Both the position numbers and the translations under genes were made by a program. Source: Xiphophorus maculatus (lineage: Eukaryota; Chordata; Actinopteri; Cyprinodontiformes; Poeciliidae). Taken from it: a DNA stretch of 64,000 nucleotides. Of the stretch, positions 7,702 through 58,901 are shown in pieces (position 1 is the stretch's first letter; every line of letters begins with the position of its first letter). The notes under the pieces are model-generated. The model saw only the letters and a list, made by a program, of their open reading frames with translations. It searched no databases and was not told where the DNA came from. Location: positions 5,719,463 through 5,783,462 of the forward strand of contig NC_036456.1 in assembly GCF_002775205.1 (NCBI RefSeq). The letters are read 5' to 3'.

Positions 7702-8762
7702 TCACATTGCTGTGAAGGCCAGCATATACACGGTGACCAGCAGAGCTGCAAGGGAAGGGAGGAGAAAATAAGGCAAATACATTAGTTTAAATAAAAAAAA
7801 AAAACTCAATAAAAATCATGTTTAGCTTACCAGGAAAGAAAGAGGAAGCGTAATTGATTGGGGCATTGTTTATCAGGTTGGTGAGGTTAGCGGTAGGATC
7901 CGACAAGTTTGTACTACTTGTCAATAATCGGAACGTTGTTTTTCCCAGCTGTAAGGTCTCTGACAGAAAAAGGAAAACAAAATAACATTAATTGGAGTAT
8001 AAATTCATGTTTATGAGTGCTTAAAGTGATTGCTTACTGGCGTCGTAAGTTCCAGCTGAAACTGACAAAGCATAATTTGCTGTTCGGACAGAACTGTCTG
8101 GTAGATCAGCTGAAAATGTGCACTGGATTTTGTTGCCGTTGACTGTGCCCCGCTCATTGCTTGAGTTCTGCGACTGAAGAGAGAAACAGTTGGATTATTT
8201 AAATGTTCAGGGAGAACTTGGGTCATACAAACTGAAAAAACAATGGACCCTCGCCCATTTACCATTCCGACGTAAGCTTAACTTACCGATTTGAGATTTA
8301 TCACAAAATTGTCAATGGTGCCAGTGAAGAATCTGACATTGCCATTGTTGTTTGCACAAATGTAAGCCGTGTGAGTGCCATTCTGCCGAACCCAACAACG
8401 ATATGATCAGTTTCATCGATTTAGACAACACTGTACTTCAGTCTGAAAACATTAAAATCTGTACGTTTACATATGACATACCGCAATTTCATTGGTTGAG
8501 AGTCCAGCAGCAACATAGCCATCTGACTGTCCTGAGAGCTCAAAGTTGTATATTTGGCCACTTTGTTGCTTGACAGATAGGAAATAGCAACTAGTTCCGG
8601 TAGTGGGATCGCACTTTGAGGGTTCGGCTGCACAGAGCTTTTTGGTGCCACATTCTTGCCGGGTTATAGCTGTCTGCAACAGGGAAGGCAAATAATTAAA
8701 ATCTTGTACTTTGACACAAACCACTATGAAAGAGGAAAGCTGCATTATTCTTAAAGTTATGT

Positions 8763-8795
<33 letters not shown>

Positions 8796-11700
8796 TATTA
8801 TGAGACTGTGTAAACCTTTGCTTTTCTCACATATTTAAACATAAAGATATTTCACTATTTCTGGTGTTTAGTACTGCTGCCTTCAATTGCAGGATATTTA
8901 AAATGCAATTTAATCCTCAAAATGGACAATTTTAGGATGTCTCAAAAATCTTAAAATGTCATCACAGACCCTACAATAGCAAGGTTTCCCCCCAGAAAAC
9001 TTGCTAAGGCCGGTGGTTGGGTGCCAGGGCAGTAATTCATCCAGCGACCCGTCGTGTTTTTAAGTCAAAAAATGTTTAAAGTTGACAGGAAATTTTGAAA
9101 AAGAATCACTTGATAATTATGTGCTATTGAAATATTGGAAGATTAATACCTGAACACCAACTATAAAGTCTTAAAAAATGCAAACATTTTAGAAAGACTT
9201 AAACAATTAAGCAATGCTTAGCCTGCACAGGTTTTACAGCACCTGTCAGAGTTGCTGTAAAACCTGGCGGCCCGCCAGGCTTACAATACACTGGGGGAAA
9301 CGCTGAATAGCCTCATGCTACTGCTGACAAGAATGCATAAGCTCGTACAATTAGGAGGAAACTACATTAAGTTTAGCTTCAGTGGAAGGTGTGCTGGGAT
9401 GAAACCATCACCCCTTGAGAGAAAATATGAATGACAGGCCAGGTCTGAAACCAAAATATTTGTTTATATAAGAACAGAGGACATGTTTGGTATAAAAGCT
9501 GCAGTTGTCATGTTTTGGGACGAGCTCGCCATTTTAGAAGCCACTGTCAATTCTACTGTGTTTCTAGGTATGCTTGTGGAAACTGAGCTTTTCGTTCTTT
9601 TTCACAACGACTCTCTTTTCCATTTGGCGAGAATTCTCTGTACGCGTGCCTCCCTTACCGAAAGTTGGGGGATGAGAGTCCCTGTTGGTGCCACTGTGGT
9701 TGCACTGTTTCCGGTCGGTGCTGGGGTTGTTGTGTTGGCAATCTCGTTGGTTACGTTGTTATTGGGGTTTGCCAGATCTACCGCGCTGACCTTTATAACA
9801 GGGGCGGGAGTACCCAGGCCATCGTTAGCTGAAAGCAGAGAAAGCACATAGTTTTTAGTTAAATTTGAACATTTTCTGCTCTTGTTAAAATGTTGCATTT
9901 CCTTGTGAAGTCACTGTGTGATGTTGGCTTACTGTCGTTGTACTCTCCCGTTGAAACCGCAACGCCGAGGGTTGTTGCTCGAGTTTTTGGTTCTGGAACA
10001 GTGGCAAGGAATTTGCACTGAATTACCTTGCCCTTGATCTTGCCCTTCACTGAGTTCACATTGAGCTGCAGAGCAGAAAGTACAACAGAAGTTTTAGAAA
10101 GTTAAGCAGATGGGAATTTGCAGACAAGAGAAGCCAAAAAGCTATTCAACATGTTACCTAGTTGAAACTGACCTTTGATGGTTTGTTATCAATGTAACCT
10201 TAAGAGATAACTGTAAAACTCACCTCTGAAATATTCAGAACACCATTGTTGAGGACCGAACTAAAGAATTTGACTTTGCCCTTGCTGTTTGCACAGATAT
10301 AAGTCGGGTCTCCCTAAAGGAGGAAATTGGGTAAAGTAAATGGTACTGTCAGAACCAAAGTTACAGAAATACAAAATATAGCTTTAGTCCTTTTATCTTC
10401 CAGTGAGTTGATGACGGTAAATTACCTGCCCACCGCCATCTATCAGAGTTGCTGCAATGTATCCGTTTGATTCTCCTGAGAGATCGAAGTTAAAGTTTCG
10501 ACCACTTTCCTGCTTGGCAGCAAAGAAGAAGCAAGACCCTGTTGCAAAGGGGTCACACTTAGGGGGCTCAACTACACACAGCTGCTTGGATCCACACTCA
10601 GCATTAGTGACGTTGGCCTGCAAAAGACATAACAGCCATCTCAGTACATAGAATGATTTACAGTTTAACCATTAACAAAAAATATCTACAATGGCCCACT
10701 CTATTCTTTTGCATTTAAAAAAAATTTTTTTTTTCATTTACCTCAAGGGTCAGCACTGTGGTGTTTGTGGACACTGGGACAAATTGTGTTGATGCTGTCA
10801 TTGATACATTCGTCACGGTGACTGCTGTTGCTGTCATATTGCTGGCTGGGGTTGTTGTGTTGTCAATCTCGTTGGTTACGTTGTTATTGGGGTTTGCCAG
10901 ATCTACCGCGCTGACCTTTATAACAGGGGCGGGAGTACCCAGGCCATCGTTAGCTGAAAGCAGAGAAAGCACATAGTTTTTAGTTAAATTTGAACATTTT
11001 CTGCTCTTGTTAAAATGTTGCATTTCCTTGTGAAGTCACTGTGTGATGTTGGCTTACTGTCGTTGTACTCTCCCGTTGAAACCGCAACGCCGAGGGTTGT
11101 TGCTCGAGTTTTTGGTTCTGGAACAGTGGCAAGGAATTTGCACTGAATTACCTTGCCCTTGATCTTGCCCTTCACTGAGTTCACATTGAGCTGCAGAGCA
11201 GAAAGTACAACAGAAGTTTTAGAAAGTTAAGCAGATGGGAATTTGCAGACAAAAGAAGCCAAAAAGCTATTCAACATGTTACCTAGTTGAAACTGACCTT
11301 TGATGGTTTGTTATCAATGTAACCTTAAGAGATAACTGTAAAACTCACCTCTGAAATATTCAGAACACCATTGTTGAGGACCGAACTAAAGAATTTGACT
11401 TTGCCCTTGCTGTTTGCACAGATATAAGTCGGGTCTCCCTAAAGGAGGAAATTGGGTAAAGTAAATGGTACTGTCAGAACCAAAGTTACAGAAATACAAA
11501 ATATAGCTTTAGTCCTTTTATCTTCCAGTGAGTTGATGACGGTAAATTACCTGCCCACCGCCATCTATCAGAGTTGCTGCAATGTATCCGTTTGATTCTC
11601 CTGAGAGATCGAAGTTAAAGTTTCGACCACTTTCCTGCTTGGCAGCAAAGAAGAAGCAAGACCCTGTTGCAAAGGGGTCACACTTAGGGGGCTCAGCTAT

Positions 11701-13719
11701 GCACAGCTGCTTGGATCCACACTCAGCATTAGTGACGTTGGCCTGCAAAAGACATAACAGCCATCACAGTACATAGAATGATTTACAGTTTAACCATTAA
11801 CAAAAAATATCTACAATGGCCCACTCTATTCTTTTGCATTTAAAAAAATTTTTTTTTTTCATTTACCTCAAGGGTTAGCACTGTGGTGTTTGTGGACACT
11901 GGGACAAATTGTGTTGATGCTGTCATTGATACATTCGTCACGGTGACTGCTGTTGCTGTCATATTGCTGGCTGGGGTTGTTGTGTTGTCAATCTCGTTGG
12001 TTACGTTGTTATCGGGGTTTGCCAGATCTACAGCGCTGACCTTTAGAACAGAGGTTGGAGAACCGAGGCCATCGTTAGCTGAAAGCAGAGAAAGCACATA
12101 GTTTTTAGTTAAATTTGAACATTTTCTGCTCTTGTTAAAATGTTGCATTTCCTTGTGAAGTCACTGTGTGATGTTGGCTTACTGTCGTTGTACTCTCCCG
12201 TTGAAACCGCAACGCCGAGGGTTGTTGCTCGAGTTTTTGGTTCTGGAACAGTGGCAAGGAATCTGCACTGAATTACCTTGCCCTTGATCTTGCCCTTCAC
12301 TGAGTTCACATTGAGCTGCGGAGCAGAAAGTACAGAAGTTTTAGAAAGTTAAGCAGATGGGAATTTGCTTAAGACATTAAGCAAATTAATTATTATTTAT
12401 TAATAATAAATTATTATTAATAATAATAATATTTTATTATTAAATATAATAAAATTATTTATATAATAAATATAATAATTATATTTAATTATTAAATTAT
12501 TGTCAAATTGTTATTAATTTGACAAATTAATTATTTGTCAAATTCTTAATTCTTATAAATTAAGAAGCCAAAAAGCTAGTCAACATGTTACCTAGTTGAA
12601 ACTGACCTTTGATGGTTTGTTATCAATGTAACCTTAAGAGATAACTGTAAAACTCACCTCTGAAATATTCAGAACACCATTGTTGAGGACCGAACTAAAG
12701 AATTTGACTTTGCCCTTGCTGTTTGCACAGATATAAGTCGGGTCTCCCTAAAGGAGGAAATTGGGTAAAGTAAATGGTACTGTCAGAACCAAAGTTACAG
12801 AAATACAAAATATAGCTTTAGTCCTTTTATCTTCCAGTGAGTTGATGACGGTAAATTACCTGCCCAACGCCACCTGTCAGAGTTGCTGCAATGTATCCGT
12901 TTGATTCTCCTGAGAGATCGAAGTTAAAGTTTTGACCACTTTCCTGCTTGGCAGCAAAGAAGAAGCAAGACCCTGTTACAAAGGGGTCACACTTAGGGGG
13001 CTCAGCTATGCACAGCTGCTTGGATCCACACTCAGCATTAGTGATGTTGGCCTGCAAAAGACATAACAGCCATCACAGTACATAGAAGGATTTACAGTTT
13101 AACCATTAACAAAAAATATCTACAATGGCCCACTCTATTCTTTTGCATTTAAAAGAAAAAAAACTTTTTCACTTACCTCAAGTGTCAGCACTGTGGTGTT
13201 TGGGGACACTAGGACAAATTGTGTTGATGCTGCCATTGATACATTCGTCACGGGGACTGCTGTTGCTGTCATATTGCTGGCTGGGGTTGTCGACACGTTG
13301 GTGAGACTTGTCACCGAGTTTTCTGTTGTTGCTGTCATTTTGGTGGTTGGGGTTGTCGACACGCTGGTGAGACTTGTCACTGAGTTTTCTGTTGTTGCTG
13401 TCATTTTGGTGGTTGGGGTTGTCGACACGCTGGTGAGACTTGTCACTGAGTTTTCTGTTGTTGCTGTCATTTTGGTGGTTGGGGTTGTCGACACGCTGGT
13501 GAGACTTGTCACTGAGTTTTCTGTTGTTGCTGTCATTTTGGTGGTTGGGGTTGTCGACACGCTGGTGGGACTTGTCACTGAGCTTTCTGTTGTTGCTGTC
13601 ATTTTGGTGGTTGGGGTTGTCGACATATTGCTAGGTGGTGCTGTCGTAGTGTTTTCAGCGCCCACAAATCTCCCAGACAGCATCACCAACAGAACACAGA
13701 AGATAAGTCTTTTATCCAT
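7702..13719 (-). CDS. Gene A: secreted mucin-like protein with four DOMON domains, probable GPI anchor
   Basis: Spliced CDS of about 992 residues. Exons (minus): 13177-13719, 12860-13051, 12658-12747, 12183-12315, 11867-12078, 11551-11742, 11349-11438, 11058-11190, 10742-10953, 10426-10617, 10224-10313, 9933-10065, 9659-9828, 8482-8673, 8287-8382, 8038-8173, 7831-7959, 7702-7745. All introns are GT-AG and the frame is open throughout. The first coding exon gives a signal peptide (MDKRLIFCVLLVMLSG) and five 22-residue Thr/Ser repeats. Four DOMON domains follow, each with CG..(K)LC, CDP, a C-[YF]-F strand, SGxxxGYxAA, YICAN and QCxF. The first three come from a tandemly duplicated exon block; the fourth is divergent and resembles the single domain of the paralogues. 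The protein ends ALLVTVYMLAFTAM, a short hydrophobic tail typical of GPI signals. The Met expected of heme-binding DOMONs is not seen. Function is unknown; an extracellular adhesion or mucus role is inference. Intron 1 carries the Gypsy element. Confidence 0.85.
8763..8794. repeat. Poly-G tract
   Basis: About 32 consecutive G residues lie in the gene A intron between exons 8482-8673 and 9659-9828. On the transcribed RNA this is poly-C. It is prone to sequencing length errors. Confidence 0.9.
8980..9305. mobile_element. Short TIR element in a gene A intron
   Basis: Left end CAAGGTTTCCCCCCAG and right end CTGGGGGAAACGCTG form imperfect inverted repeats about 326 bp apart, with AATAG on both flanks. 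It resembles a non-autonomous hAT-type MITE, has no coding capacity, and lies in the intron before the last DOMON block. Confidence 0.55.
9729..13287 (-). repeat. Three tandem copies of a four-exon DOMON block
   Basis: Units are about 9729-10853, 10854-11978 and 11979-13287. The first two are 1,125 bp and nearly identical, with only scattered substitutions in exons and introns. The third is 184 bp longer because of an AT-rich insert. Break points fall inside the linker exon, so each copy brings a complete DOMON (three exons) plus linker and keeps phase (entry phase 1, exit phase 0). Confidence 0.9.
12369..12560. repeat. AT-rich low-complexity insertion in an intron
   Basis: About 185-190 bp, almost entirely A and T with local palindromes of TTATTATTAA and TTTGACAAATTAA type. 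It interrupts the intron where the other two blocks read directly from GGGAATTTGC to GAAGCCAAAAAGC. It is present only in the third block. Confidence 0.85.
13291..13620 (-). repeat. 66-bp coding minisatellite in gene A
   Basis: Five units of 66 bp encode a 22-residue repeat (core STTPTTKMTATTENSVTSLT). The central units are almost identical in DNA. This is the short mucin-like stalk before the first DOMON. Confidence 0.9.
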
Positions 13720-14285
13720 GCCTACAAGAAATAGCAAAATAGACAGAATCATTCCTGATGGGGAATTTTGATACACTTAGAGATGAGAACATAACTTTGA
13801 GAGTTTTCAATTCACCCAAATTTCCTCCAAAATATTATGAATATTTACTGTTAATTTAATCCTAACTCTAATATTTGTCAGTATCCAGATCAGTATTTAA
13901 CAGAGACTAGATGGACTATCTGCACACACTTAGACGTAAGACACATGTAGAGAAGAGCTTGGAAAACGTATCGTCCAGAACAGTGTCCAGACAATGTTAA
14001 CTGTCAATGTACTGTGTCAATGGACAGAAACCAGCCACAATGCATGTCCAATGTGGTTTTTATGATTTAACATACTATTGTGTGTTCTGTAGTTAGACTG
14101 TTTCTGTCGGGTTCTGGGGGTCTTGGTCCTTTTTTTTTCTCCTTTTGTTTTTCTTTTCCCCTCTTCCTGGTGTCAGTCTGTAGCATCACTGTGGCCCACT
14201 AGATGGAGCCAGAGGCTGTCTACCTGGGAGGCGCGCCCAGGGGTTTTACGCACCTGGCGGTCGTTATCTCATCATCCTCTGGAGG

Positions 14286-14325
14286 TTAAAGAAGCTGACT
14301 GCCAGCACTTCGACGCCGGAGTGTT
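14286..14325 (+). promoter_or_regulatory. LTR core promoter and inferred transcript start
   Basis: TTAAAG at 14286-14291 stands 24-29 bp before GCCGGAGTGTT (14315-14325), which is exactly complementary to the primer binding site just after the LTR. In self-priming Tf1/sushi elements the RNA 5' end pairs with that site, so transcription should begin at or near 14,315. The start is inferred from the pairing. Confidence 0.6.
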
Positions 14326-14833
14326 TTACCTACTTGGTACACTGAGCCCCTCGAGGTTAGTCCTCTGAGTTTGTTTTTCCTCTAAGTAACTCTTCGTTGT
14401 CCTCTGTGCTCTTCAGGAATCGTTTTCGCCTCGAGACCATTTGGATTCCCCAGAGTGACTTTCATCCTGGCTTTTTGGTTAAAGCCCTCCTCGTGACGCC
14501 GTGGACGTTACCCACTGGTTGCCCGAGTTCCGTCTTCACCTCTCCTGTCAGATCTCAAGAGTCTCAGTTGTCATCGGCTGGCAGTCGGACCCCGCCTCCA
14601 CCTCCGTCAAGACACCACTTACCTGCCCGCCCTCCACCGCAGCCTCCCTGCTTAGGAACCCACAGACTATCTCCCTGATTGTGATCATTCCTTCCCACGT
14701 AAGAACCGATCTGTTTCCATCATAACTCCCGTTTCCCAGTTGACCCGAACTCACCATCTCCTCCTGTTCGCAGTTTTCCGCTGTCTTCCAGACTCCACCC
14801 CAGGATCCCCACCACATCACATAACTTTGCCTC

Positions 14834-14839
14834 AATAAA
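14834..14839 (+). terminator. LTR polyadenylation signal
   Basis: AATAAA in the 5' LTR; the 3' LTR copy lies near 19,503. Transcripts should end shortly after it. Confidence 0.6.
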
Positions 14840-14902
14840 AATCCTTAACTGATTTCTGTTCCCTGTGGTGTTCTGCATGTGGGCAAAAGCTTTAACGCCA
14901 TC

Positions 14903-15898
14903 ATGACAGAACACTCCGGCCAGCAGGCAAGCCCCGCAGACGCCATCAGACGAACACTATCGGAACAACAGTCACAACTTCACACTCATGAGTCCGCCCT
15001 ACGAGAATTAAGTGCCCGTCAAGCCGAGACTAACCAGCGCCTAACTGATCTAATGAATTTCCTACAGAAATCTGTTCCGCAGGCTACGCCTCCAGACCCC
15101 GCGCCGGCTCCCGACCCGGCTCCGCCAGCGCGTCCTTCATACTCGGAGGTTCGACCTCCTACCCCGGAAAGATTCTCTGGAGACATATACAGGTGCAAGG
15201 GGTTCATTTTGCAATGCTCTTTAATTTTTAACCACTCTCCCCAGAGTTTCCCTCATGACGGCGCAAAGATCGCCTATGTTCTGTCTCTGCTGTCCGGTCG
15301 AGCGCTAGATTGGGCCGAGGCAAGGTTTCCATCTCCCACTGATTTCGGGTGTACGTTTGACGCTTTCCTGAAAGAGTTTAGGCAAGTTTTCAGTCAAGAC
15401 CAAGATAAAACATTTAACTCTCGTGAATTGTGGAAAATTAAACAGGGGCAGCGAACGGTAGCCGACTTTGCCGTCGATTTCAGGGTGAAGGCTGCAGCTT
15501 CTAATTGGAACTCGGCGGCACTAAAGAGTGTATATTTTCATGCACTAAATGAGCAGATCAAAGATGAACTAGCCACGCTAGATGAACCCGAGACATTAGA
15601 GGATCTCATAAGTTTGACCATTCGTCTCGATAACAGAATCCGGTCCCGCGCGAAAGAGAGAAATCGGAGAGAACCACCTATTAGAACTTTAACATCTGCT
15701 ACTCCCTCTCCCTCCGCTCTCAGTCTTCCATGTCCGCCAAGTCCCCCAGGTCCGGAACCGATGCAAATTGGTCATACTCGCCTCACCCCAGCTGAGCGTC
15801 ATAGGAGAATGACTTCCCGCCTGTGTTTATATTGTGGTTCACCTGATCACTTCATAGCTCATTGCCCAACTCGGTTAAACCCCCGGGTCCACCAGTAA
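14903..15898 (+). CDS. Gag of the Gypsy/sushi element
   Basis: 331 residues, starting at the ATG in CCATCATGACAG that spans the LTR end; the longer upstream open frame has only a GTG. The N-terminal quarter is Gln/Glu-rich and probably coiled coil, then comes a Pro-rich stretch. The central part (about residues 75-270) is a retrotransposon Gag domain with sushi-type signatures such as [16 protein letters not shown] and [11 protein letters not shown]. Near the C terminus is one zinc knuckle, C-x2-C-x4-H-x4-C (C308, C311, H316, C321). Gag packages element RNA into cytoplasmic particles. The frame is intact. It overlaps pol, which is read by -1 frameshift just before the Gag stop. Confidence 0.93.
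14910..14920 (+). other. Primer binding site, self-priming type
   Basis: AACACTCCGGC begins one base after the 5' LTR. It does not begin TGG as tRNA-primed sites do. It is exactly complementary to 14315-14325 in the LTR, and the preceding G could add a G-U pair. This matches the known self-priming mechanism of Tf1 and the related sushi group. Confidence 0.7.
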
Positions 15899-15919
15899 AG
15901 GCGAGGAAACTGGTGGACC
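15874..15919 (+). promoter_or_regulatory. -1 ribosomal frameshift signal at the gag-pol junction
   Basis: The heptamer G-TTA-AAC (15874-15880) is in the Gag zero frame. After a 5-nt spacer, a perfect 11-bp stem forms between GGTCCACCAGT (15886-15896) and ACTGGTGGACC (15909-15919). Shifting back one base rereads the final C and enters the pol frame as P-P-G-P-P-V-K. The Gag stop (15896-15898) lies at the foot of the loop. The layout is that of a classical -1 signal; a pseudoknot was not resolved. Confidence 0.85.
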
Positions 15920-18762
15920 GTTTAGAAAAGGGGGATTCACCTCGCTTGCTATTATCGGCAACATCAATCGACCGTGATCAGTCACTTCCGTTGTCTGTCT
16001 TTATAGATTCGGGCTGCGAACAGAATCTCATTGATTCAGCACTAGTTCAGCAGCTGTCCATAGAAACCACCCCATTAACCGTTCCCCTTTGTGTCTCAGC
16101 TTTGGATGGAAAACCCCTTCCTAAAATCACCCATCAGACCAAACCGTTGAAGTTAGTTATTTCTGGAAATCATAGTGAGATCATTTCGTTTTTTGTTTTT
16201 CCCACCGTAAGCTCCTCCGTAATCCTAGGGTTTAAATGGTTGCAACAGCATAATCCCCACATCAACTGGACAGACAGACATGTTGAATCCTGGTCCACTT
16301 TTTGTCATCAATCCTGTCTCCGCTCAGCAGTTCCACCAGGTCCTCCCACGGCTAAACCAAAGGAGGCAGACATGCCTGATCTCTCCACCATCCCACCCGA
16401 GTACCATGATTTAACCCCAGTTTTTAGTAAGTCTAAAGCACTCTCTCTACCACCACACCGTCCGTATGACTGCGCGATCGACCTTCTCCCCGGGGCGCCA
16501 CTTCCCTCTAGCCGGCTGTACAACATTTCTCGACCTGAACGGGAAACCATGGAGGGTTACATCAGAGACTCTTTAGCTGCCGGGATCATCCGCCCATCCT
16601 CCTCTCCCTTAGGGGCGGGGTTTTTTTTTGTAGGCAAGAAGGACGGTTCGCTGCGGCCATGCATAGACTACAGGGGCTTAAATCAAATTACAGTAAAAAA
16701 TAAATATCCTCTGCCCCTGTTATCTTCAGCTTTCGAGCCAGTGCATGACGCCACTATTTTCACCAAATTAGATCTAAGGAACGCCTATCATTTACTCCGT
16801 ATTCGTCACGGGGATGAATGGAAAACCGCGTTTAAAACACCTATCGGACACTTTGAATATTTGGTCATGCCGTTCGGCTTGTCTAATGCTCCCGCTTTCT
16901 TTCAAGCTCTTGTAAACGATGTTCTGAGAGACTTTCTGAATATCTTCGTTTTCGTCTACCTAGATGATATTTTAATCTACTCCAAGTCCCTCGAAGACCA
17001 CAAGCATCACGTTCGTCTAGTTTTACAACGGCTCCTAGAAAACAAGCTCTATGTAAAAGCTGAGAAATGCGAGTTCCACAAGCCATCCGTCTCTTTCCTG
17101 GGATTCATCCTTGAGGGTGGGCAGGTAAGGCCAACGGAGGAAAAGATCAAGGCTGTGCTGGAATGGCCAATCCCGGAAACACGCAAACAACTCCAAAGAT
17201 TCCTCGGATTTGCCAATTTCTATCGCCGCTTTATCCGCAACTATAGTCAGACAGCCTTACCGTTAACTGCCCTCACTTCGACCAAGATTCCGTTCAGTTG
17301 GACTCCCGAGGCGGATGCGGCTTTCATTAAGCTAAAGACTCTGTTTTCTAACGCACCCGTGCTAATCCAACCTGATCCTAAGAAACAGTTTGTCGTTGAA
17401 GTGGACGCATCTGAACCAGCCCCTGACTCCTGTCCTTCACATAAGATCTATGTTCCCTCCTCTGTCCGAGCCCGTTTTCTTAACTGGATCCACTCATCCA
17501 GGTTTTCCGGACACCCAGGCATCAGTCGCACTATTGCACTAATAAACCGCAAGTTTTGGTGGTCATCCATTCACAAAGATGTTAAGGAATTTGTGCTAGC
17601 TTGTCCTGTCTGTTCCAGAAATAAACCATCCCATCAGCCCCCTGCAGGTCTCCTGCAACCCTTACACATTCCGAAACGACCCTGGTCCCATATCGCTATC
17701 GATTTTGTAACAGGCTTACCTTCGTCTAAAGGCATGACCACCATTTTTACTGTTATCGACAGGTTCTCCAAAGCTTGCCATCTAATTCCGCTTAGGAAGC
17801 TCCCTTCTGCATTTCAGACAGCTCAACTCCTGGTCAAACATGTTTTCCGTTTACATGGTATTCCACAGGAAATATTATCTGATCGAGGTCCACAATTCAT
17901 ATCTCAGATCTGGAGGAACTTCTGCTCAGCGCTTGGCGCAAAGGTGTTGTTAACCTCTGGTTTTCATCCCCAGACTAACGGCCAGACGGAACGTTTGAAC
18001 CAGGAACTGGAGTCAACCCTCCGCTGCTTCACATCCACCAACCCCTCAGACTGGAATCAGTTTCTTCCTTGGGTGGAGTATGCTCATAATTCACATGTTT
18101 CTGCTGCCACCAGTTTGTCCCCTTTTGAAGCTTCCCTGGGTTATCAGCCTCCGTTGCTCTCCTCCGAAGAACGTGACTTAGCCGTTACCTCAGTGCAACA
18201 TCACATCCGCCGCTGTCAGAAGATCTGGAGAACCACTGTCACCACACTTAACAACACCGCCGAACAAAACAAACGCCTCGCTGACCGCAAACGGACTCCC
18301 GCTCCCTGTTACACCCTTGGACAAAAGGTTTGGTTATCTTCCCGGAACATTCCCCTTAAATCCATGTCTAGAAAGCTCTCTCCTAGGTTCATTGGTCCGT
18401 TTTGCATTGAACGCATCATCAGCCCGTCAGCAGTTCGTCTGCGTCTCCCGGCTTCCCTGCGAGTTCATCCCACGTTCCATGTCTCACAGATTAAACCTGT
18501 CCAGACCAGTGCGCTTTGCCCTCCTCCAGAGCCCCCTCCTCCCGCCCGTGTCATTGATGGCCATCCGGCTTATTCTGTCCGCCGGATCGTGGACTCCCGT
18601 CGGCGAGGTCGTGGGTGGCAGTACCTCGTCGACTGGGAGGGCTACGGTCCGGAGGATCGTTCTTGGGTCCCTCGATCTTTTATCCTTGATCCTTCTCTTA
18701 TTACTGATTATGTTTCGTCGCTTCCCTCCTGCTCTTCTCGGCCGCCGGGTGGCGACCGTTGA
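15880..18762 (+). CDS. Pol: protease, RT, integrase, chromodomain; RNase H deleted
   Basis: About 960 residues in the -1 frame, giving a Gag-Pol of roughly 1,286. Domains in order: aspartic protease ([12 protein letters not shown]); reverse transcriptase with FVYLDD (YLDD at 16957-16968); a connection region ending in VDAS (17401-17412); integrase zinc finger ([10 protein letters not shown] ... CPVC); integrase core with Asp in HIAIDFV, Asp in LSDRGPQF and Glu in [11 protein letters not shown]; and a C-terminal chromodomain ([17 protein letters not shown]). RNase H should follow VDAS, but the frame passes directly into the pre-integrase linker (EPAPDSCP). More than 100 residues are therefore missing without a frame break. 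This chain alone should be unable to degrade the RNA strand during reverse transcription. Otherwise the frame is intact. Confidence 0.93.
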
Positions 18763-18770
18763 GGGGGGGG
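18763..18770 (+). other. Polypurine tract
   Basis: GGGGGGGG directly follows the pol stop, three bases before the 3' LTR. This is the expected place for the plus-strand primer of an LTR retrotransposon. Confidence 0.7.
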
Positions 18771-18773
18771 TAC

Positions 18774-21299: not shown

Positions 21300-21452
21300 C
21301 TGTGAATCTTCTTGTCGTCAGTCTAATCGGTTGTTCCTCGGCTGTCAGAGTTACTGCCCCGAAATATGATCTGCAGGTGGAGTGTCTCTGATGCTTTCTG
21401 CAAACTCCCAAAGGAAGATGTGACACCTGTTTACTGTGTGTCACTATTTAAG
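21300..21452 (-). promoter_or_regulatory. Gene A promoter and non-coding first exon
   Basis: A TATA-like CTTAAATAG (21444-21452 on minus) is followed by an untranslated exon whose donor is TTCACAG|GTAAAA (exon end 21300). The block matches those of genes C, D and E: the TATA box lies between a gene-proximal motif (GTAAA-GTGTCAC type) and an upstream CTCCTCC-type purine/pyrimidine stretch. Splicing joins it to the acceptor at 13721, two bases before the start ATG. The exact start site is unknown. Confidence 0.65.
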
Positions 21453-22674: not shown

Positions 22675-23045
22675 AGGGCCGGCCCAAGCCTCCATGGGGC
22701 CCTAAGCGAAATGTAATTTTGGGGCCCTCTAGTTCTGCTAGCAAGGGGGACCGGCTGCAATCAGCAGTCCGATCACTAGCTCATTCTCACACCTGCTATA
22801 AACTTATTGCATCTCAGGCAGTGCTGTTTACATTATATACATGTATAATAGGATACATTTATTGGCCAACTGATGTCTGAAACTGAAATTATTCATAGTG
22901 AAATTGTGGGTCTTTGATATTACAGTGACAGAAATTATTACTAAAAAACAAAACAAACAAAAACCTCAGCTCCACCGAGGGGGCCCCGTAGTGGCTCTTG
23001 GGCCCTAAGCGGCTGCTTAGTTTGCTTATGCCTTAGGCCGGCCCT
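22675..23045. mobile_element. Short TIR element (MITE), copy 2
   Basis: Same 371-bp element as at 796-1166, with the same flanking CTTTCCATGC repeats; it was copied as part of the segmental duplication. Confidence 0.75.
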
Positions 23046-23239
23046 CTTTCCATGCACCCATGTGAAAACAAATACTTAATCATTGCAGTTTCTAAACCTG
23101 CCACTATGAGCGCTATAATGCATGGGTATCATAACAGTAATATAATTTCCTAATATACAAAAAAAAAAAGTCTGTCCTAATTAACATAAGACAATCCTTT
23201 GTTAGTCCTACAAAGGATAATCTTAGGAATTTGTCATAT

Positions 23240-29340: not shown

Positions 29341-29487
29341 CTTGAAAGAAAAGATAATTCCTTGGACAGAGTATCTCGTAAATGTTACGTTTAATCCCTA
29401 GGCATTACTCTCAGGTGGATTGCTCCTGATGTCCTCTGATTCCCAGGGGAATATGTGACACTTATTTACTCTGTGCCAGTATTGAGG
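29341..29487 (-). promoter_or_regulatory. Gene B promoter and first exon, degenerate TATA
   Basis: The donor TTTCAAG|GTAGGCAC ends the non-coding exon at 29341, and the block aligns with the paralogous promoters. The TATA position reads CCTCAATAC (29479-29487) instead of CTTAAATAG. Splicing joins to an acceptor two bases before the ATG. Confidence 0.55.
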
Positions 29488-29751
29488 ACCTAGGGGGAGG
29501 GAGGAGACAGGACAGTTGACACCGAAGGATAGGAAAGACGTTCATAGGGGTGGCAAGTTACTTAATGAGTTTACTTTTCTAAAGTCCTCCCTAAACACAC
29601 ATTAAATTATGTCAATGATTAGACCAAGGAAGTAAGGGTTTTTCCCCCCTCAGCTTCTCTGATTGCACAGAGAAGCTGGAGTAGTCCCACACTTTTGAGA
29701 AATTTCTTATTTACCTTTAATTGATAACAGATGGAGCAAACATATTCACCC

Positions 29752-40979: not shown

Positions 40980-41243
40980 TATTTATATGTATAGACACAC
41001 AAGATTAGTGCAACTCAGAAAACAATGTATGAAAAAGAAAATAAATAAGTTAATAAATAATGAATTCTTACTCTTTCATATGCCTTAAGAATTTCAAGTG
41101 ACCGGTTGAGTAAACGTCTTTATACATTTAAAAGTGTTTAACAGTTCTACCTCTTTATATGATTGAAAAAGTCTTTTTGTAAAATAATAATTGAGTAATA
41201 TGAAAACTCTTTCAAAACAGACAGTGGTTGCTCTTCTACCTAC

Positions 41244-41393
41244 CTGTAGACTTTATTCTCCTTAATTCAAAAGGTAAGTCCTTGAACAGATGTAGTTTTA
41301 TTCCCAGGTATGATTGGCAGGTGGCCTGTGTCCAATATCCTCTGATTTCCAGGTGAATATGTGATTCCTCTTTACTCTGGACCACTATTTAAG
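41244..41393 (-). promoter_or_regulatory. Gene C promoter and non-coding first exon
   Basis: TATA-like CTTAAATAG at 41385-41393 (minus); donor GTCTACAG|GTAGGTAG ends the exon at 41244. The block is nearly identical to the gene D promoter. Intron 1 runs to the acceptor before 37632. Confidence 0.65.
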
Positions 41394-41876
41394 TCTTGCA
41401 TAGAGGGAGGAGACACTACAATAAACCTTGAGGGGAGTGAAAGGAACTGTTACAGGTGTGGTAAGTTGCATGGTGAGTTTACTTGTTTAAAGGTCTTAAA
41501 GATAGGTTTATGTCAAAGATTTGACTAGGAAAACATGTAGTCTTTCTTTGTTCATGTATGATTACGCAGGCATGAGGATGTCTCATATTTCTAAAGCACA
41601 CCCTGTCTTTGTAGAATTCTAACCTCAAAAAAATCTATATTTCTTTCTTCTATTGTCTAAGCGTCATTCAAAGTATGCAGAGCAACACACCAGATTAGAT
41701 CATGGAAATGACAGTGAAGTCATTTGTTCAGCATAGATTAAGTGAACATTTAGGAACTCCCTCAAAACCATAGAGCTGCACAAAAGTATGTAACATCTTG
41801 GAATGTAAAGGGGACGTCACCTAAAAGATATGTGTATATCAAATTAGGAGTTGACGGAATATGGCTATATCAAGAC

Positions 41877-45529: not shown

Positions 45530-47946
45530 TCATACTGCTGTGAAAGCCAGCAGAGACACGGTGACCAGCAGAACTGTAGGGGAGAAGACAGAAAAGAAGT
45601 GAGAAATTTGGTGCTTTGGTAATTTTTAATATGAAGAACCATCAGATTTAGAGAACATCTAAAAAATGCTTGATGCATAAAAGCCTTGAGAACGGTCTTC
45701 ATGTGAGACTTTGGCAAAAAGTAAAAGTAAAGATAAAAAGAGGAACAATGTTTTACTGACTAAACACAAATTTAATCACAATCAATTAAGTTAGGTCACT
45801 GTATCCCCTGTTTTATAGTAGAAATAATTTCAGTGAAATGCTTCTTGGAGCCAGTCAATGATACTGGTTTGAGAGAAGCTTGATCCATTCTTCTCTATCA
45901 GCTCAGTGATGAGTTTTCTTTTACCCCTTTTAAACCACCACCCTGAAACTCAGCCAGAATATGTTGGAGTTTAAGGTTCTGTTTTAACGATGAATTAAAC
46001 GGAAAATTTAAATTGTTAAGATAAGATAAGATGAGATAAGATTTATTTGTCATTGTCATCAACAGATTACAACGAGATTGAGATTTGCTCGACTCGAGTT
46101 AAAATGCAGGTTATGTGTATATACATAATATACAATATACAATATACATACATACATAGAAAAGATAAAGAAATAAATAGTACAAAATGAGAACTACTTG
46201 TATTCAGTTGAATAGTTTGTTTCTACCAGGAATGAGGTAGGCAGCTTTAAGAAACTAAAATAGGTGCAAAGGCTGTCCATTGAAAAAAGAGTAACTACTT
46301 TTTTTTAAAAAAATGGCATTTAAACAGAATATGAATATGTTTCTTTATCTATATTGGCTCTACAACAATCAAGTCTCTCTTATGACAAATCATAAATTGT
46401 TGTCATATTTCCACTAGTCTTATGACTAACCCTAAACCCAAATCTTAGCGGCTGGAAGGCCTGTTTCACGTCACACTAAGGTTTAGCTCCCATATTGTCT
46501 CCCCAGCTTTGGCGTCATTAGCTTACCTGGCAAGAATGACTGTGTGTGTGTGACCGGATAAGCAGAGGAGGTGCTGTTAGTGCTGTTGCTCAGCAAATTG
46601 GTGACGTTGGTGGTAGGGTCGGAGAGGTTCACAAGAGGTGTTAGGATTCTGAAGTTTGCATTTCCCAGTTCCCCGGAAGCTGAGAAAAGACGCAAAAACA
46701 TTTCAAACAGTGATACCAATGACTTTGGTGAATACCATAAGTGACATTGAAATTGTGTGAATGGTTAAAGTGGTTCCTTACTGGCATTGTAAGTTCCAGT
46801 TGTAACAGACACAGCATAACCTGCTGCTCGTGTCGTCGTGTCAGGTAGGTCAGCTGAAAATGTGCACTGGATTTTTCCTGAGTTGACTGATCCCTTCACA
46901 TTGCTTGAGTTAAGTGTCTGAAGAGAGAAAGAGTTTAATTAACTGAAAGTACATCAATGATGTCCATGCATTGTGTAACATAAATTGAGAAATACAGTAT
47001 ATCCCTACTACTGATGCTGTATAATCTTTGCTCACCTGTGTGAGATTTAGAACCAGATTATTGATGAAGCCAGTGAAGAAACGGACAGCACCTTTGTGGT
47101 TAGCGCAGAAATAGGCTCTGTGACTGGCAGTCTGTTGAAAAACATTACATTAATTTATTTTCAATCGTTTCAAACTAGAATATTGCTCTGGTTTAGAATT
47201 CATGGTATTTTAATCTAGGTTCATAAAATATGCATTACCTGAGATGCAGCATTTGACAGACCAGCAGCAATGTAGCCGTCTGTCTGTCCTGAGAGCTCAA
47301 AGTTGTACGTTTGGCCACTTTGTTGCTTGGCAGAAACAAAATAGCAGGTTGAGGAAGAGGGATCACACTTTGAGGGTTCAGCTGCACAGAGCTTTGAGGA
47401 GCCACATTCTTGTCGAGAAATACTGGCCTACAAAGGTGAAGGCATGAATTTTAAATATTGCACTGTAATAATCTTACAATAAATCTCATATGTGATGACT
47501 TTCATTTTTTCAATTAGGTTATTTCTATTTCTTACCACTGCCGGGAGTGTGTTTGATGCTACTGTGGTTGCATTATTAGCCGGTGCCATGGTGGTTGCGT
47601 TGCTAGCTGGTGCCACGGTGGTTGCGTTGCTAGCTGGCGCTACTGTAGTTGCGTTGTTGGCTGGTGCTACTGTAGTTGCGTTGTTGGCTGGTGGTACTGT
47701 AGTTGCGTTGTTGGCTGGTGGTACTGTAGTTGCGTTGTTGGCTGGTGGTACTGTAGTTGCATTATTAGCTGGCGCTACTGTAGTTGCGTTGTTGGCTGGT
47801 GCTACTGTAGTTGCGTTGTTGGCTGGTGGTACTGTAGTTGCGTTGTTGGCTGGTGGTACTGTTGTTGTATTACTCTGAGCATAGGTGGCCATAAATTCCA
47901 AGGACAGTGTCACCAACAAAAAACTGAGGAGCAGTCGTTTATCCAT
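45530..47946 (-). CDS. Gene D: short Asn-Ala-Thr repeat mucin with DOMON domain, probable GPI anchor
   Basis: Spliced CDS of about 342 residues. Exons (minus): 47536-47946, 47239-47427, 47036-47131, 46782-46917, 46527-46679, 45530-45573; all GT-AG, open frame. The signal peptide and first stalk residues match gene C (MDKRLLLSFLLVTLSLEF). The stalk has only about 12 units of the 9-residue repeat, of two alternating types (NATTVPPAN and NATTVAPAN). One DOMON follows with the same cysteine set and a YFCAN strand, then a linker with several N-x-S/T sites (SNSTNSTSS) and the tail VLLVTVSLLAFTAV. Apart from repeat number, gene D is the near twin of gene C at the front and of gene E at the back. Confidence 0.87.
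46018..46110 (-). mobile_element. Probable 3' end of a non-LTR retrotransposon
   Basis: On minus: CTCAATCTCGTTGTAATC, then GACAATGACAAATAAATCTTATC and a TTATC-type simple tail. This combination is typical of fish LINE/SINE 3' ends. The paralogous copy lies near 53283-53372. Confidence 0.45.
47565..47875 (-). repeat. 27-bp coding minisatellite, about 12 units
   Basis: Same 27-bp period as in gene C, far shorter and more uniform. All units keep the frame and a sequon. Confidence 0.93.
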
Positions 47947-49436: not shown

Positions 49437-49674
49437 GATTAGTGCAACTCAGAAAACAATGTATGAAAAAAGAAAATATGTTAATAAATAATGAATTCTT
49501 ACTCTTTCATATGCCTTAAGAATTTCAAGTGACCGGTTGAGTAAACGTCTTTATACATTTAAAAGTGTTTAACAGTTCTACCTCTTTATATGATTGAAAA
49601 AGTCTTTTTGTAAAATAATAATTGAGTAATATGAAAACTCTTTCAAAACAGACAGTGGTTGCTCTTCTACCTAC

Positions 49675-49824
49675 CTGTAGACTTTATTCTCCTTAATTCA
49701 AAAGGTAAGTCCTTGAACAGATGTAGTTTTATTCCCAGGTATGATTGGCAGGTGGCCTGTGTCCAATATCCTCTGATTTCCAGGTGAATATGTGATTCCT
49801 CTTTACTCTGGACCACTATTTAAG
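49675..49824 (-). promoter_or_regulatory. Gene D promoter and non-coding first exon
   Basis: TATA-like CTTAAATAG at 49816-49824 (minus); donor GTCTACAG|GTAGGTAG ends the exon at 49675. It is nearly identical to the gene C block. Confidence 0.65.
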
Positions 49825-50266
49825 TCTTGCATAGAGGGAGGAGACACTACAATAAACCTTGAGGGGAGTGAAAGGAACTGTTACAGGTGTGGTAAGTTGC
49901 ATGGTGAGTTTACTTGTTTAAAGGTCTTAAAGATAGGTTTATGTCAAAGATTTGACTAAGAAAACATGTAGTCTTTCTTTGTTCGTATATGATTACGTAG
50001 GCATGAGGATGTCTCATACTTCTAAAGCACACCCTGTCTTTGTAGAATTCTAACCTCCTTAAAAAAATCTATATTTCTTTCTTCTATTGTCTAAGCGTCA
50101 TTCAAAGTATGCAGAGCAACACACCGGATTAGATCATGGAAATATTTGTTCAGCATAGATAAAGTGAACATTTAGGGACTCCCTCAAAACCATAGAGCTG
50201 CACAAAAGTATGTAACATCTTGGAATGTAAAGGGGACGTCACCTAAAATATATGTGTATATGAAGC

Positions 50267-50819: not shown

Positions 50820-50824
50820 GAAGC

Positions 50825-51385: not shown

Positions 51386-51866
51386 TTAGTGTCTGAAGAG
51401 AGATAGAGTTTAATTAGCTGAGAGTAAAACAATGATGTCCAGGCAAACATTGTGTCGCATAAATTGAGAAATATATCCCTACTACTGATGCTGTATAATC
51501 TTTGCTCACCTGTGTGAGATTTAGAACCAGATTATTGATGAAGCCAGTGAAGAAACGGACAGCACCTTTGTGGTTAATGCAGAAATAGGCTCTGTGATTG
51601 GCAGTCTGTACACACAACATTAACATTATTCAATTTCCATCTTTTCTGGCTAGAGTATTGCTCAGGTTTAGATTTCATGGTATTTTAATCTAGGTTCCTA
51701 AAATATGCATTACCTCAGATGCAGCATTTGACAGACCAGCAGCAATGTAGCCGTCTGTCTGTCCTGAGAGCTCAAAGTTGTACGTTTGGCCACTTTGTTG
51801 CTTGGCAGAAACGACATAGTAGCTGCTGCTGCAGTGGTCGTAGTAGCTGCAAGGATCTTGCATGTT
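51386..51866 (-). pseudogene. Broken DOMON gene copy between genes D and E
   Basis: One complete DOMON exon remains (51510-51605, frame open, C-I-N in place of C-A-N). The 3' part of the preceding exon also remains (51714 to about 51,860), but its CG..K-LC half is replaced by sequence containing GCTACTACGACCACTGCAGC, similar to the gene E repeat. The following exon keeps only its acceptor, and no terminal exon, signal peptide or promoter is present. It is a fragment left by unequal recombination. Confidence 0.75.
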
Positions 51867-52032: not shown

Positions 52033-54760
52033 GAAAATTTCATAGAAGTGGAAAATGTTTAAAGAAAGTGCTGGGTTACAAGTAGAATAAAAAGGCTGGA
52101 CCAAGTGATTCCTTCAGGAAGATGTATTTATTTCAGTTTGAATAAATAAGATGACAAAGTATTTTATTAAATATATATATTAAAATATTCAATTTGTGCA
52201 AATTTTAAAATGACCTTCAACATGTACTACCACATTTAACATCTTAATTGTTTTAACATTCATTCACATCAGCCATTAAAGACTTCATAATCAAGGAACT
52301 GCTAAATAATTAACGCCATTATTACAACAAAGATCAATGCAGTGTCAAAAGAAATAAGAATTGAAGATTTCAACATGCACCAGTAAAATAGACTTCTAAA
52401 GTATAACCAGACCTTGAAACACAAATGCGGTCAAGCATGATGACATATTTTTGACTCTTGAAAAAAATCAGTTTTTCCTTCATTTGTAGAAAAGTTTTAC
52501 ATCACAGAGCAGAATTCCAGAAGTGTTGTGGGTAAATAGTTTTATAGAACTAAAGAGGAAGCATTTGACATAATTTCTCTTTTGATTCAGAATCACAAAG
52601 GGTTGTAAACTTGTCACCAAGCAACGGAGCAGAGGCTTGAGGAGTTGTTCTTAAAATAAAAAAACTGAGTCAGCACAAAATGGATCCTACCAAAGTAGGA
52701 AAATCTGTCCAAGACCTGCTCCATTTTTGATCTTAGTCGTCTGTGTTCATTGATAGAGACGTTACGGCCTTTTTCTAACATGGTGGAGATAAGTTGCTTC
52801 ATACTGCTGTGAAAGCCAGCAGAGACACGGTGACCAGCAGAACTGTAGGGGAGAAGACAGAAAAGAAGTGAGAAATTTGGTGCTTTGGTAATTTTTAATA
52901 TGAAGAACCATCAGGTTTAGAGAACATCTAAAAAATGCTTGATGCATAAAAGCCTTGAGAACGGTCTTCATGTGAGACTTTGGCAAAAAGTAAAAGTAAA
53001 GATAAAAAGAGGAACAATGTTTTACTGACTAAACACAAATTTAGTCACAATCAATTAAGTTAGGTCACTGTATCCCCTGTTTTATAGTAGAAATAATTTC
53101 AGTGAAATGCTTCTTGGAGCCAGTCAATGATACTGGTTTGAGAGAAGCTTGATCCATTCTTCTCTATCAGCTCAGTGATGAGTTTCCTTTTACCCCTTTT
53201 AAACCACCACCCTGAAACTCAGCCAGAATATGTTGGAGTTTAAGGTTCTATTTTAACGATGAATTAAACGGAAAATTTAAATTGTTAAGATAAGATAAGA
53301 TGAGATAAGATTTATTTGTCATTGTCATCAACAGATTACAACGAGATTGAGATTTGCTCGACTCGAGTTAAAATGCAGGTTATGTGTATATACATAATAT
53401 ACAATATACATATACATACATACATAGAAAAGATAAAGAAATAAATAGTACAAAATGAGAACTACTTGTATTCAGTTGAATAGTTTGTTTCTACCAGGAA
53501 TGAGGTAGGCAGCTTTAAGAAACTAAAATAGGTGCAAAGGCTGTCCATTGAAAAAAGAGTAACTACTTTTTTTTAAAAATGGCATTTAAACAGAATATGA
53601 ATATGTTTCTTTATCTATATTGGCTCTACAACAATCAAGTCTCTCTTATGACAAATCATAAATTGTTGTCATATTTCCACTAGTCTTATGACTAACCCTA
53701 AACCCAAATCTTAGCGGCTGGAAGGCCTGTTTCACGTCACACTAAGGTTTAGCTCCCATATTGTCTCCCCAGCTTTGGCGTCATTAGCTTACCTGGCAAG
53801 AATGACTGTGTGTGTGTGACCGGATAAGCAGAGGAGGTGCTGTTAGTGCTGTTGCTCAGCAAATTGGTGACGTTGGTGGTAGGGTCGGAGAGGTTCACAA
53901 GAGGTGTTAGGATTCTGAAGTTTGCATTTCCCAGTTCCCCGGAAGCTGAGAAAAGACGCAAAAACATTTCAAACAGTGATACCAATGACTTTGGTGAATA
54001 CCATAAGTGACATTGAAATTGTGTGAATGGTTCAAGTGGTTCCTTACTGGCATTGTAAGTTCCAGTTGTAACAGACACAGCATAACCTGCTGCTCGTGTC
54101 GTCGTGTCAGGTAGGTCAGCTGAAAATGTGCACTGGATTTTTCCTGAGTTGACTGATCCCTTCACATTGCTTGTTGTTAGTGTCTGAAGAGAGAAAGAGT
54201 TTAATTAACTGAAAGTACATCAATGATGTCCATGCATTGTGTAACATAAATTGAGAAATACAGTATATCCCTACTACTGATGCTGTATAATCTTTGCTCA
54301 CCTGTGTGAGATTTAGAACCAGATTATTGATGAAGCCAGTGAAGAAACGGACAGCACCTTTGTGGTTAGCGCAGAAATAGGCTCTGTGACTGGCAGTCTG
54401 TTGAAAAACATTACATTATTTTATTTTCAATCGTTTCAAACTAGAATATTGCTCTGGTTTAGAATTCATGGTATTTTAATCTAGGTTCATAAGATATGCA
54501 TTACCTGAGATGCAGCATTTGACAGACCAGCAGCAATGTAGCCGTCTGTCTGTCCTGAGAGCTCAAAGTTGTACGTTTGGCCACTTTGTTGCTTGGCAGA
54601 AACGAAATAGCAGGTTGAGGAAGAGGGATCACACTTTGAGGGTTCAGCTGCACAGAGCTTTGAGGAGCCACATTCTTGTCGAGAAATACTGGCCTACAAA
54701 GGTGAAGGCATGAATTTTAAATATCCCACTGTAGAAACCTATTAATAAACCTCATAGGTG
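52033..54760. repeat. Duplicated unit, gene E copy
   Basis: Partner of 44765-47520. Exons, introns, the LINE-like tail and the 3' UTR correspond almost base for base. Confidence 0.85.
52127..52132 (-). terminator. Polyadenylation signal, gene E
   Basis: AATAAA on minus about 670 nt beyond the stop codon, in the conserved context. Confidence 0.7.
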
Positions 54761-57700: not shown

Positions 57701-58362
57701 GCTTCCGTGGTCGTAGTAGTTGTTGCTGCAGTGGTTGTGGTAGTTGGTGCTTCCGTGGTCGTAGTAGTTGGTGCTGCAGTGGTTGTAGTAGTCGGTGCTG
57801 TCGTGGTTGTAGTAGTTGGTGCTGCAGTGGTTGTAGTAGTTGTTGCTTTCGTGGTCGTGGTAGTTGGTGCTGCAGTGGTTGTAGTAGTTGTTGCTTCCGT
57901 GGTCGTAGTAGTTGTTGCTGCAGTGGTTGTGGTAGTTGGTGCTTCCGTGGTTGTAGTAGTCGGTGCTGCAGTGGTTGTAGTAGTCGGTGCTGTCGTGGTC
58001 GTAGTAGTTGGTGCTGCAGTGGTTGTAGTAGTTGTTGCTTCCGTGGTCGTAGTAGTTGGTGCTGCAGTGGTTGTAGTAGTTGGTGCTACAGTGGTCGTAG
58101 TAGTTGGTGCTGCAGTGGTCGTAGTAGTTGTTGCTGCACTTGTCGTAGTAGTTGTTGCTGCACTTGTCGTAGTAGTTTTTGCTGCACTTGTCGTAGTAGT
58201 TGGTGCTATCGTGATTGTAGTAGTTGGTGCTATCGTGATTGTAGTAGTTGGTGCTGTTGTGGTCGTAGTAGTTGGTGCTGCTGTGGTCGTCTGAGCATTT
58301 GTGGCCATAAATGCCCAGGATAGCATCACCAACATAACGCTGAGGATCAGTAGTTTATCCAT
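52799..58362 (-). CDS. Gene E: giant poly-Thr/Ala octad mucin with DOMON domain, probable GPI anchor
   Basis: Spliced CDS of about 1,386 residues. Exons (minus): 54820-58362, 54505-54693, 54302-54397, 54048-54183, 53793-53945, 52799-52842; all GT-AG, open frame. A signal peptide (MDKLLILSVMLVMLSWAF) leads into about 1,130 residues of Thr-rich repeat in three zones: Pro-containing octads (AAPTTTTT type), Pro-free octads (AATASTNT, AATATTTT) and a 16-residue repeat (SAAATMITAATASTNT). N-x-S/T sites are rare, so O-glycosylation should dominate, unlike genes C and D. One DOMON follows, nearly identical to that of gene D (CGSSKLC, YFCAN, QCTF), then the NSTNSTSS linker and the tail VLLVTVSLLAFTAV. 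The first coding exon is 3.5 kb. Function is unknown; the gel- or brush-forming character is inferred from composition. Confidence 0.87.
54880..58290 (-). repeat. 24/48-bp coding minisatellite in three zones
   Basis: About 56,000-58,290 has 24-bp units encoding xAPTTTTT octads. About 55,400-56,000 has 24-bp units encoding AATASxxT. About 54,880-55,400 has about eleven 48-bp units encoding SAAATMITAATxxxxT. All share the 24-bp base period, so the 48-bp unit is a higher-order dimer. Confidence 0.93.
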
Positions 58363-58745
58363 CCTGTCTGAAAAATGTACGATAGCATAAGGGCTTAGCT
58401 TCAGTTATATGAGTTCTTCAAAAAGAAAATCAACTTGCCAAATTTTCTAAAATTAAAAAATTCAAATAAATAAGTTTTGCTTTATATTCCTAATAAAACA
58501 TTTTATACATATAATGAAATATTTTTATAAGCGTAACAAAATATTTTAAGAAATGTCTAAATAGGGAGTTATTTCATATGGCTAAAGAATTTCTAATTAG
58601 CAGTTATCTAATCTTATTTATATAATTACTACTTAACACTCCTCAGATGGTTAAAACAGCCATTTTTTGTATAATACAGTAGCTGCTGCCGTCATAAAAG
58701 AATATAATAGAAAAAAAGAAAATTTAAATTGGTTGTTGTACCTAC

Positions 58746-58901
58746 CCGTAAATTGTTTTTGTCCTTAGGGCAAAAGATAATTCCTTAGAATGTCTTGTAT
58801 AGGTGATGTTCCCAGGTATGATTTGCAGGTGGATTGTTTCTGATGTCTTCTGACGCCCAGGTGAATCTGTGACACCCGTTTACTCCGTCTTGCTATTTAT
58901 C
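58746..58901 (-). promoter_or_regulatory. Gene E promoter and non-coding first exon
   Basis: TATA-like GATAAATAG at 58893-58901 (minus); donor TTTACGG|GTAGGTAC ends the exon at 58746. Splicing joins to acceptor TTTTTCAG before 58367. Confidence 0.65.

Follow-up and report, generated by a model that had tools for sequence, protein, structure and literature searches.

A tandem family of DOMON-like genes with mucin tracts and GPI-type tails in Xiphophorus maculatus

MUC1-type membrane mucins are built, from the N terminus, of a signal peptide, a variable tandem-repeat tract, a membrane-proximal folded SEA module, a transmembrane segment and a cytoplasmic tail. Among DOMON proteins, CYBDOM/FRRS1 (SDR2) carries an extracellular DOMON with cytochrome b561 behind it and, in some members, a reeler domain in front; FRRS1L has a DOMON without cytochrome b561, and neither FRRS1L nor plant AIR12 is known to have a mucin tract. 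FRRS1L is described as an AMPA-receptor partner. AIR12 is described as a b-type cytochrome in which a DOMON is the only folded domain, with a glycosylphosphatidylinositol (GPI) anchor and electron paramagnetic resonance evidence of heme in the available text of PMC10784544; insect Knickkopf is described as an extracellular GPI-anchored DOMON protein that also has a pair of DM13 domains and a conserved region at its C terminus, and the Tribolium protein is reported to bind colloidal chitin with strong affinity (PMC4140639, available text). Here we analyse a window of 64,000 nucleotides of the Xiphophorus maculatus genome (NC_036456.1, positions 5,719,463 to 5,783,462 of the forward strand), in which an initial annotation had proposed a tandem, expanding family of DOMON genes with mucin tracts and GPI-type tails. 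Our analysis supports such a DOMON-like family and a recent expansion. We lean modestly towards reading its products as GPI-anchored, heme-less, mucin-like surface glycoproteins with a MUC1-like layout and a non-redox DOMON, forming a barrier or decoy canopy.

Set beside CYBDOM/FRRS1, which we take to be the closest relative of the cluster domain (a comparison by description, with the sequences not aligned), the cluster proteins share an extracellular DOMON but have no b561 or reeler that we found and no ligand methionine or histidine, and they add a mucin tract and a GPI-type tail. They resemble FRRS1L, again by description only, in having a DOMON without b561; its role as a receptor partner and its want of a known mucin tract set it apart. 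With AIR12 they share the domain plan and, if the tail is processed, the anchor, but the heme ligands are absent from the cluster domains; Knickkopf differs from them in its DM13 domains and C-terminal region. Their order of parts is that of MUC1-type mucins, with DOMON and GPI-type tail in place of SEA, transmembrane segment and cytoplasmic tail. Literature searches on the DOMON domain with mucin, fish, teleost or vertebrate tandem gave no description of the cluster family among the matches listed, and those on GPI-anchored DOMON domains led to insects and plants. For the architecture class, the initial statement that no role had been described was thus too strong, as AIR12 and Knickkopf are described. 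Published accounts of fish frrs1 genes, which may or may not belong to the cluster family, offer context only: as far as the available text of each goes, frrs1c of zebrafish can be induced in nose and gill and, weakly, in liver, and is expressed at a basal level in gut (PMC3201981), salmon frrs1a rises in infection and frrs1b does not (PMC8758579), and food deprivation raises frrs1 in gill (PMC12716027).

Five complete genes lie in tandem on the minus strand, each with an ATG and a final stop.

Gene A, 13719-7702, minus strand: 992 aa in 18 coding exons; a signal peptide, a mucin tract of 66-bp repeats, four DOMON units and a GPI-type tail; model drawn from GT..AG introns, phases and open frame.
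Gene B, 29010-24888, minus strand: 274 aa; exons 29010-28789, 28652-28464, 28377-28282, 28162-28027, 27908-27771 and 24931-24888; short, non-repetitive tract.
Gene C, 37630-33066, minus strand: 1025 aa; exons 37630-35168, 35059-34871, 34763-34668, 34551-34419, 34315-34163 and 33109-33066; 27-bp sequon repeats.
Gene D, 47946-45530, minus strand: 342 aa; exons 47946-47536, 47427-47239, 47131-47036, 46917-46782, 46679-46527 and 45573-45530; C-like head, E-like body.
Gene E, 58362-52799, minus strand: 1386 aa; exons 58362-54820, 54693-54505, 54397-54302, 54183-54048, 53945-53793 and 52842-52799; Thr/Ala tract.

Each of the 37 coding introns, 17 of them in A and 5 in every other gene, runs GT..AG, phases agree at every junction, and each spliced open reading frame has a single stop, at its end and none premature, which bears out the five paralogues first annotated. 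They follow a common plan of an ATG/signal exon with a serine/threonine (S/T)-rich tract, DOMON exons in threes, an N/S/T linker exon and a last coding exon, 44 nt long in all five genes, that encodes the hydrophobic tail. The plan had been called fixed; that holds for the six exons of B to E but not for gene A, where four DOMON units follow one another in 18 exons.

Tandem arrays fill the tract in four of the five genes, with 66-bp units in A, 27-bp units in C and D and units of a 24/48-bp family in E; B has none, and the chemistry is as originally claimed. Serine and threonine make up 51% of the tract in A, 28% in C, 27% in D and 61% in E (706 of 1164 residues), and the C tract holds 79 N-glycosylation sequons in 804 residues. 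An S/T-rich tandem-repeat tract, a feature of mucins, is found in A, C, D and E. At the other end of the protein, the last 25 residues carry no charge and the last 15 have a mean hydropathy of 1.83-2.31 in all five genes. The tract precedes the DOMON in every gene, so that with a C-terminal lipid anchor it would lie outermost and the DOMON near the membrane. The earlier label 'stalk' is misleading on this point; given such an anchor, the tract is better read as a canopy in MUC1-like order.

Full-length Pfam scans covered A, B and D, three of the five proteins. They gave no cytochrome b561 after the DOMON, and all five frames stop in the 44-nt exon, a check that covered coding frames, with downstream DNA not scanned for an alternative exon. 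Before the first DOMON lie only the signal and the S/T-rich tract, with no reeler match in the same three proteins, nor did these have a DM13 match anywhere. The absence of reeler and b561 noted initially is thus upheld in three of the five proteins.

The folded domain, present four times in A (A1-A4) and once in each other gene, is probably a DOMON, though the assignment is weak. Six of the eight domains match the Pfam DOMON family (PF03351, curated cut-off 32.7 bits) at E<=10. Single scans of four domains put A4 at E 7e-6 (26.7 bits), D at 1.7e-5, C at 4e-5 and A2 at 0.22. Full-length D matched at 6.1e-5, and full-length A and B had no DOMON match at E<=1. Six cysteines are invariant across all eight domains.

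Other database matches were set aside. Those to ATXR5/6 and PieF in PDB are attributable to chance (E 0.27 or worse). Ferritin_2 in A reached E 0.0007 at 20.2 bits against a cut-off of 24.7, with no single stretch passing; MUCL1 in B (0.14), EGF_Tme5 and SRCR_2, as well as MINT_RAM7 in three of eight domains (best 0.0076), LXG and GLEYA, all fell under their Pfam cut-offs. NCBIfam returned a single weak match (0.44).

In the available text of PMC10691727, all animal CYBDOMs examined there have methionine (in SxDxxMGxD) and histidine as heme ligands, and both are absent in sugar-binding DOMONs and DBH. The corresponding loop reads STDAYLNDS in B, STNEIANGT in A4, SNAASETAS in C and SNAASQTAS in both D and E, and is shorter in A1-A3. 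The CYBDOM ligand methionine is missing from all eight domains: seven cores have no methionine whatever, and the only one (C, residue 130) lies outside the ligand loop. A1-A3 have no histidine, and no histidine column is common to the eight domains. With the ligand methionine and a conserved histidine both missing, CYBDOM-type heme chemistry is very unlikely in any of the eight.

Gene A departs most from the single-domain plan. Its exon order is signal plus mucin tract, four rounds of three DOMON exons and a linker, and a tail.

Gene A exon 1, 13177..13719, minus strand: signal peptide, then a mucin tract whose 66-bp units lie at 13257-13625.
Unit A1, 11867..13051, minus strand: exons 2-5 (13051-12860, 12747-12658, 12315-12183, 12078-11867); exon 5 a linker/mucin fusion of 212 nt.
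Unit A2, 10742..11742, minus strand: exons 6-9 (11742-11551, 11438-11349, 11190-11058, 10953-10742); exon 9 fused, 212 nt.
Unit A3, 9659..10617, minus strand: exons 10-13 (10617-10426, 10313-10224, 10065-9933, 9828-9659); exon 13 fused, 170 nt.
Unit A4 and tail, 7702..8673, minus strand: exons 14-18 (8673-8482, 8382-8287, 8173-8038, 7959-7831, 7745-7702).

A1-A3 are near copies (dS, the synonymous divergence, is 0.027 for A1-A2 and 0.009 for A2-A3) with 38-40% identity to the B domain; A4, at 53%, groups nearer the B-E type in a tree. Ordinary linker exons measure 129, 138 or 153 nt, all multiples of three, and both enter and leave in phase 1. The three internal linkers of gene A (212, 212 and 170 nt) leave a remainder of two and pass from phase 1 to phase 0, the exit of a mucin exon. 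The repeated unit, roughly 1.1 kb long but 1.3 kb in its first copy, has both ends at an 11-nt junction, ACAACCCCAGC, found in exon 1 as well as in the A3 linker and read as ..TTPA.. in both. Past this junction, fused exons 5 and 9 run on like exon 1, while the end of fused exon 13 resembles, by eye, a B/C/E-type mucin exon (GCAACCACAGTGGCACCAAC). Their length modulo three and the junction held in common with exon 1 show the three internal linkers to be linker/mucin fusions. The gene probably arose by fusion of neighbours, a type-1 DOMON joining a type-2 gene, after which the type-1 cassette was duplicated twice. That A might be several separate paralogues was rejected, as its 18 exons include one signal exon and one tail exon and form one continuous frame.

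A second rearrangement is seen in gene D, which on sequence comparison is a recombinant with a C-like head and an E-like body. Among sites that differ between C and E (gap sites left out), D agrees with C at 59 of 59 around the start of the signal exon and at 42 from the tract end through intron 1 to 47459, a stretch in which one further site agrees with E and one with neither; from 47241 onward the agreement is with E at 148, with C at 5 and with neither at 1. The switch therefore falls between 47459 and 47241, within exon 2, and the D and E bodies with their downstream flank are 97% identical. Since the head follows C and the body and flank follow E, the upstream element, signal and mucin tract appear to have been combined with the DOMON and tail of another gene. 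Exon 2 is identical at 188 of 189 positions between C (34871-35059) and E (54505-54693; D 47239-47427) against only 74% in intron 3, a possible sign of local gene conversion. An allelic, false duplication of D and E was judged unlikely, as the D head matches C and the E tract is unrelated.

The locus thus carries recombination marks in coding sequence, namely the in-frame linker/mucin joins of A and the head/body combination at exon 2 of D. A more far-reaching proposal, which we regard as doubtful, is that S/T-rich coding exons act as in-frame hinges for chaining DOMON units and that exchange at exon 2 moves promoters and canopies, making the locus a combinatorial generator of surface coats, in a vertebrate surface-mucin family whose module next to the membrane is a heme-less, possibly lectin-like DOMON.

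A decaying pseudogene cluster, its frames open by chance or through recent duplication, would account for the broken copy, the orphan exon, a recent long terminal repeat (LTR) insertion between the A coding exons and their upstream element, and modest constraint. Five frames are open, however, and the ratio of nonsynonymous to synonymous divergence (dN/dS) is below 1 in 26 of 28 domain pairs; with the three pairs within A1-A3 set aside, the remaining 25 span 0.23-0.73 (the D-E value rests on 5 differences). In a crude neutral simulation from the D core (2000 runs each, indels ignored), the share of runs that ended stop-free was 2.4% for a distance like that of A4, 6.6% for one like that of B, 25.5% for C and 0.15% for A1. 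When C is compared with E, exons are better conserved than introns: exon 3 is identical at 95 of 96 positions against 83 of 112 in intron 3, and exon 4 at 112 of 133 against 65 of 102 in intron 4. Purifying constraint on the domains is likely but modest, and decay seems very improbable. DOMON and tail had both been called conserved: the tail exon is, in five of five genes, but conservation of the DOMON is uneven, as the low identity of A1-A3 to B and dN/dS values of up to 0.73 among diverged pairs indicate.

The remaining alternatives grant function and differ on what it is. As redox DOMONs the proteins would act either as b-type cytochromes with a GPI anchor or as partners of ferric reductases, in the manner of AIR12 or of the FRRS1/CYBDOM domain. 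The profile match speaks for this, as does the precedent of AIR12, which has a single DOMON, a GPI anchor and heme supported by spectroscopy (PMC10784544, available text), but the axial methionine is gone from every domain, no histidine is conserved and A1-A3 have neither, leaving it very improbable. A fast-evolving recognition family, on gamete surfaces or in immunity, in which turnover of tracts and DOMON number is itself selected, would account for the differing tract chemistry on the near-identical DOMONs of D and E, the exon fusion and head exchange, and the upper dN/dS values. Yet no diverged domain pair exceeds a dN/dS of 1 and turnover of mucin tracts is common without special selection, so we consider it unlikely. 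Were the hydrophobic C terminus not processed to a GPI anchor, or trimmed for release, the products would be secreted gel or mucus components, as their mucin tracts, many sequons and a hydrophobic end short for a transmembrane helix would allow; yet each of the five genes retains the 44-nt exon and its hydrophobic end free of charge, as a GPI signal would require, and secretion is in our view quite unlikely.

We return to the reading as GPI-anchored surface glycoproteins. Each would present an outer, variable glycan canopy, a membrane-proximal folded module and an anchor, with a heme-less DOMON taking the place of the SEA module of MUC1. This DOMON would not be a redox cytochrome and would most likely bind glycans, a partner or a neighbouring molecule, and the canopy may form part of an epithelial surface barrier or a decoy coat. 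A number of results weigh against this picture. GPI attachment was judged by hydropathy alone, and glycan binding is argued from missing heme ligands, with no positive motif. As for the DOMON assignment, every PF03351 score lies below the curated cut-off, which would make the domain a divergent DOMON. The B domain and one of A1/A3 had no PF03351 match at E<=10, and a sequence search of PDB with the cluster domains found no solved DOMON. Constraint is blurred by the mutual dN/dS of A1-A3 (0.63, 1.03 and 1.16, resting on 3, 17 and 14 differences), by dS above 1.4, near saturation, between A1-A3 and the other domains, by the small difference between exons 3-4 (71-74%) and introns 3-4 (64-74%) when B is compared with C or E, and by an excess of third-position differences that is significant in only two of seven pairs tested, which is weak support. 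Splice signals in gene B are weak at the exon 2 donor (GTAGTG) and the exon 5 acceptor, and all the evidence is genomic DNA of one locus in one species.

Should the reading be correct, it would place one group of vertebrate DOMON proteins outside redox and synaptic biology, provide a DOMON counterpart of MUC1-type mucins and offer a readable case of repeat-coding exons fusing and swapping protein modules in frame. It would also be a warning that the name 'ferric reductase-like', where similarity has given it to such genes, may cover proteins without redox chemistry.

Upstream of B, C, D and E lies a promoter-like element of about 240-300 bp at 68-71% identity, with a shorter match for A (75-88 bp at 69-77% across comparisons).

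Gene E upstream element, 58730..58976, minus strand: 70.8% identical to C and D; longer match 58772-59048, 68.3% to B.
Gene D upstream element, 49631..49911, minus strand: identical to the C element over 281 bp.
Gene C upstream element, 41200..41480, minus strand: identical to the D element over 281 bp.
Gene B upstream element, 29349..29645, minus strand: 68.3% to E.
Gene A short upstream match, 21365..21452, minus strand: 76.7% to E over 86 bp (E=8.7e-13); 69-75% to B, C and D.

The elements of B, C, D and E contain a GTAGG donor-like site, and an AG stands 1-2 bases ahead of the ATG in all five genes; together these make a non-coding first exon at the elements plausible.

The window also holds two incomplete copies, both real as initially annotated.

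Orphan tail exon, 3013..3056, minus strand: 44 nt, a by-product of a 5.8-kb segmental duplication.
Broken copy, 51386..51822, minus strand: short E-type tract (by eye) joined mid-exon 2, with exon 3 following and exon 4 broken off after a few bases.

The segmental duplication (1-5765 and 21869-27670, 98.0% identical) ends about 100 bp short of B exon 5 and may be an allelic, false duplication. It ends inside the first copy of a 1.3-kb element found at 4543-5767, 26418-27734 and 38661-39960, which we take to be hAT-like; its ends read TAGGCCTG..CAGGCCTA, with 8-bp target duplications GGAGTGGC at C and TTCCTACA at 26.4-27.7 kb. Between the upstream match of gene A and its ATG exon sits a recent LTR retrotransposon (14105-19578). 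Judged by eye it is of gypsy type; its LTRs, each about 806 bp long, are 99.9% identical, and GTTTC forms its 5-bp target duplication. It has gag-like and pol-like frames, and in the latter the start of an RNase H-like motif seems to pass directly into integrase-like sequence, suggesting an internal deletion. An inverted repeat pair at 42039-43057 and 31606-32446 (about 0.4 + 0.4 kb, 81-87% identical) probably represents dispersed repeats, and an open frame at 59575-59856 resembles, by eye, the helix-turn-helix start of a pogo/Tc-type transposase.

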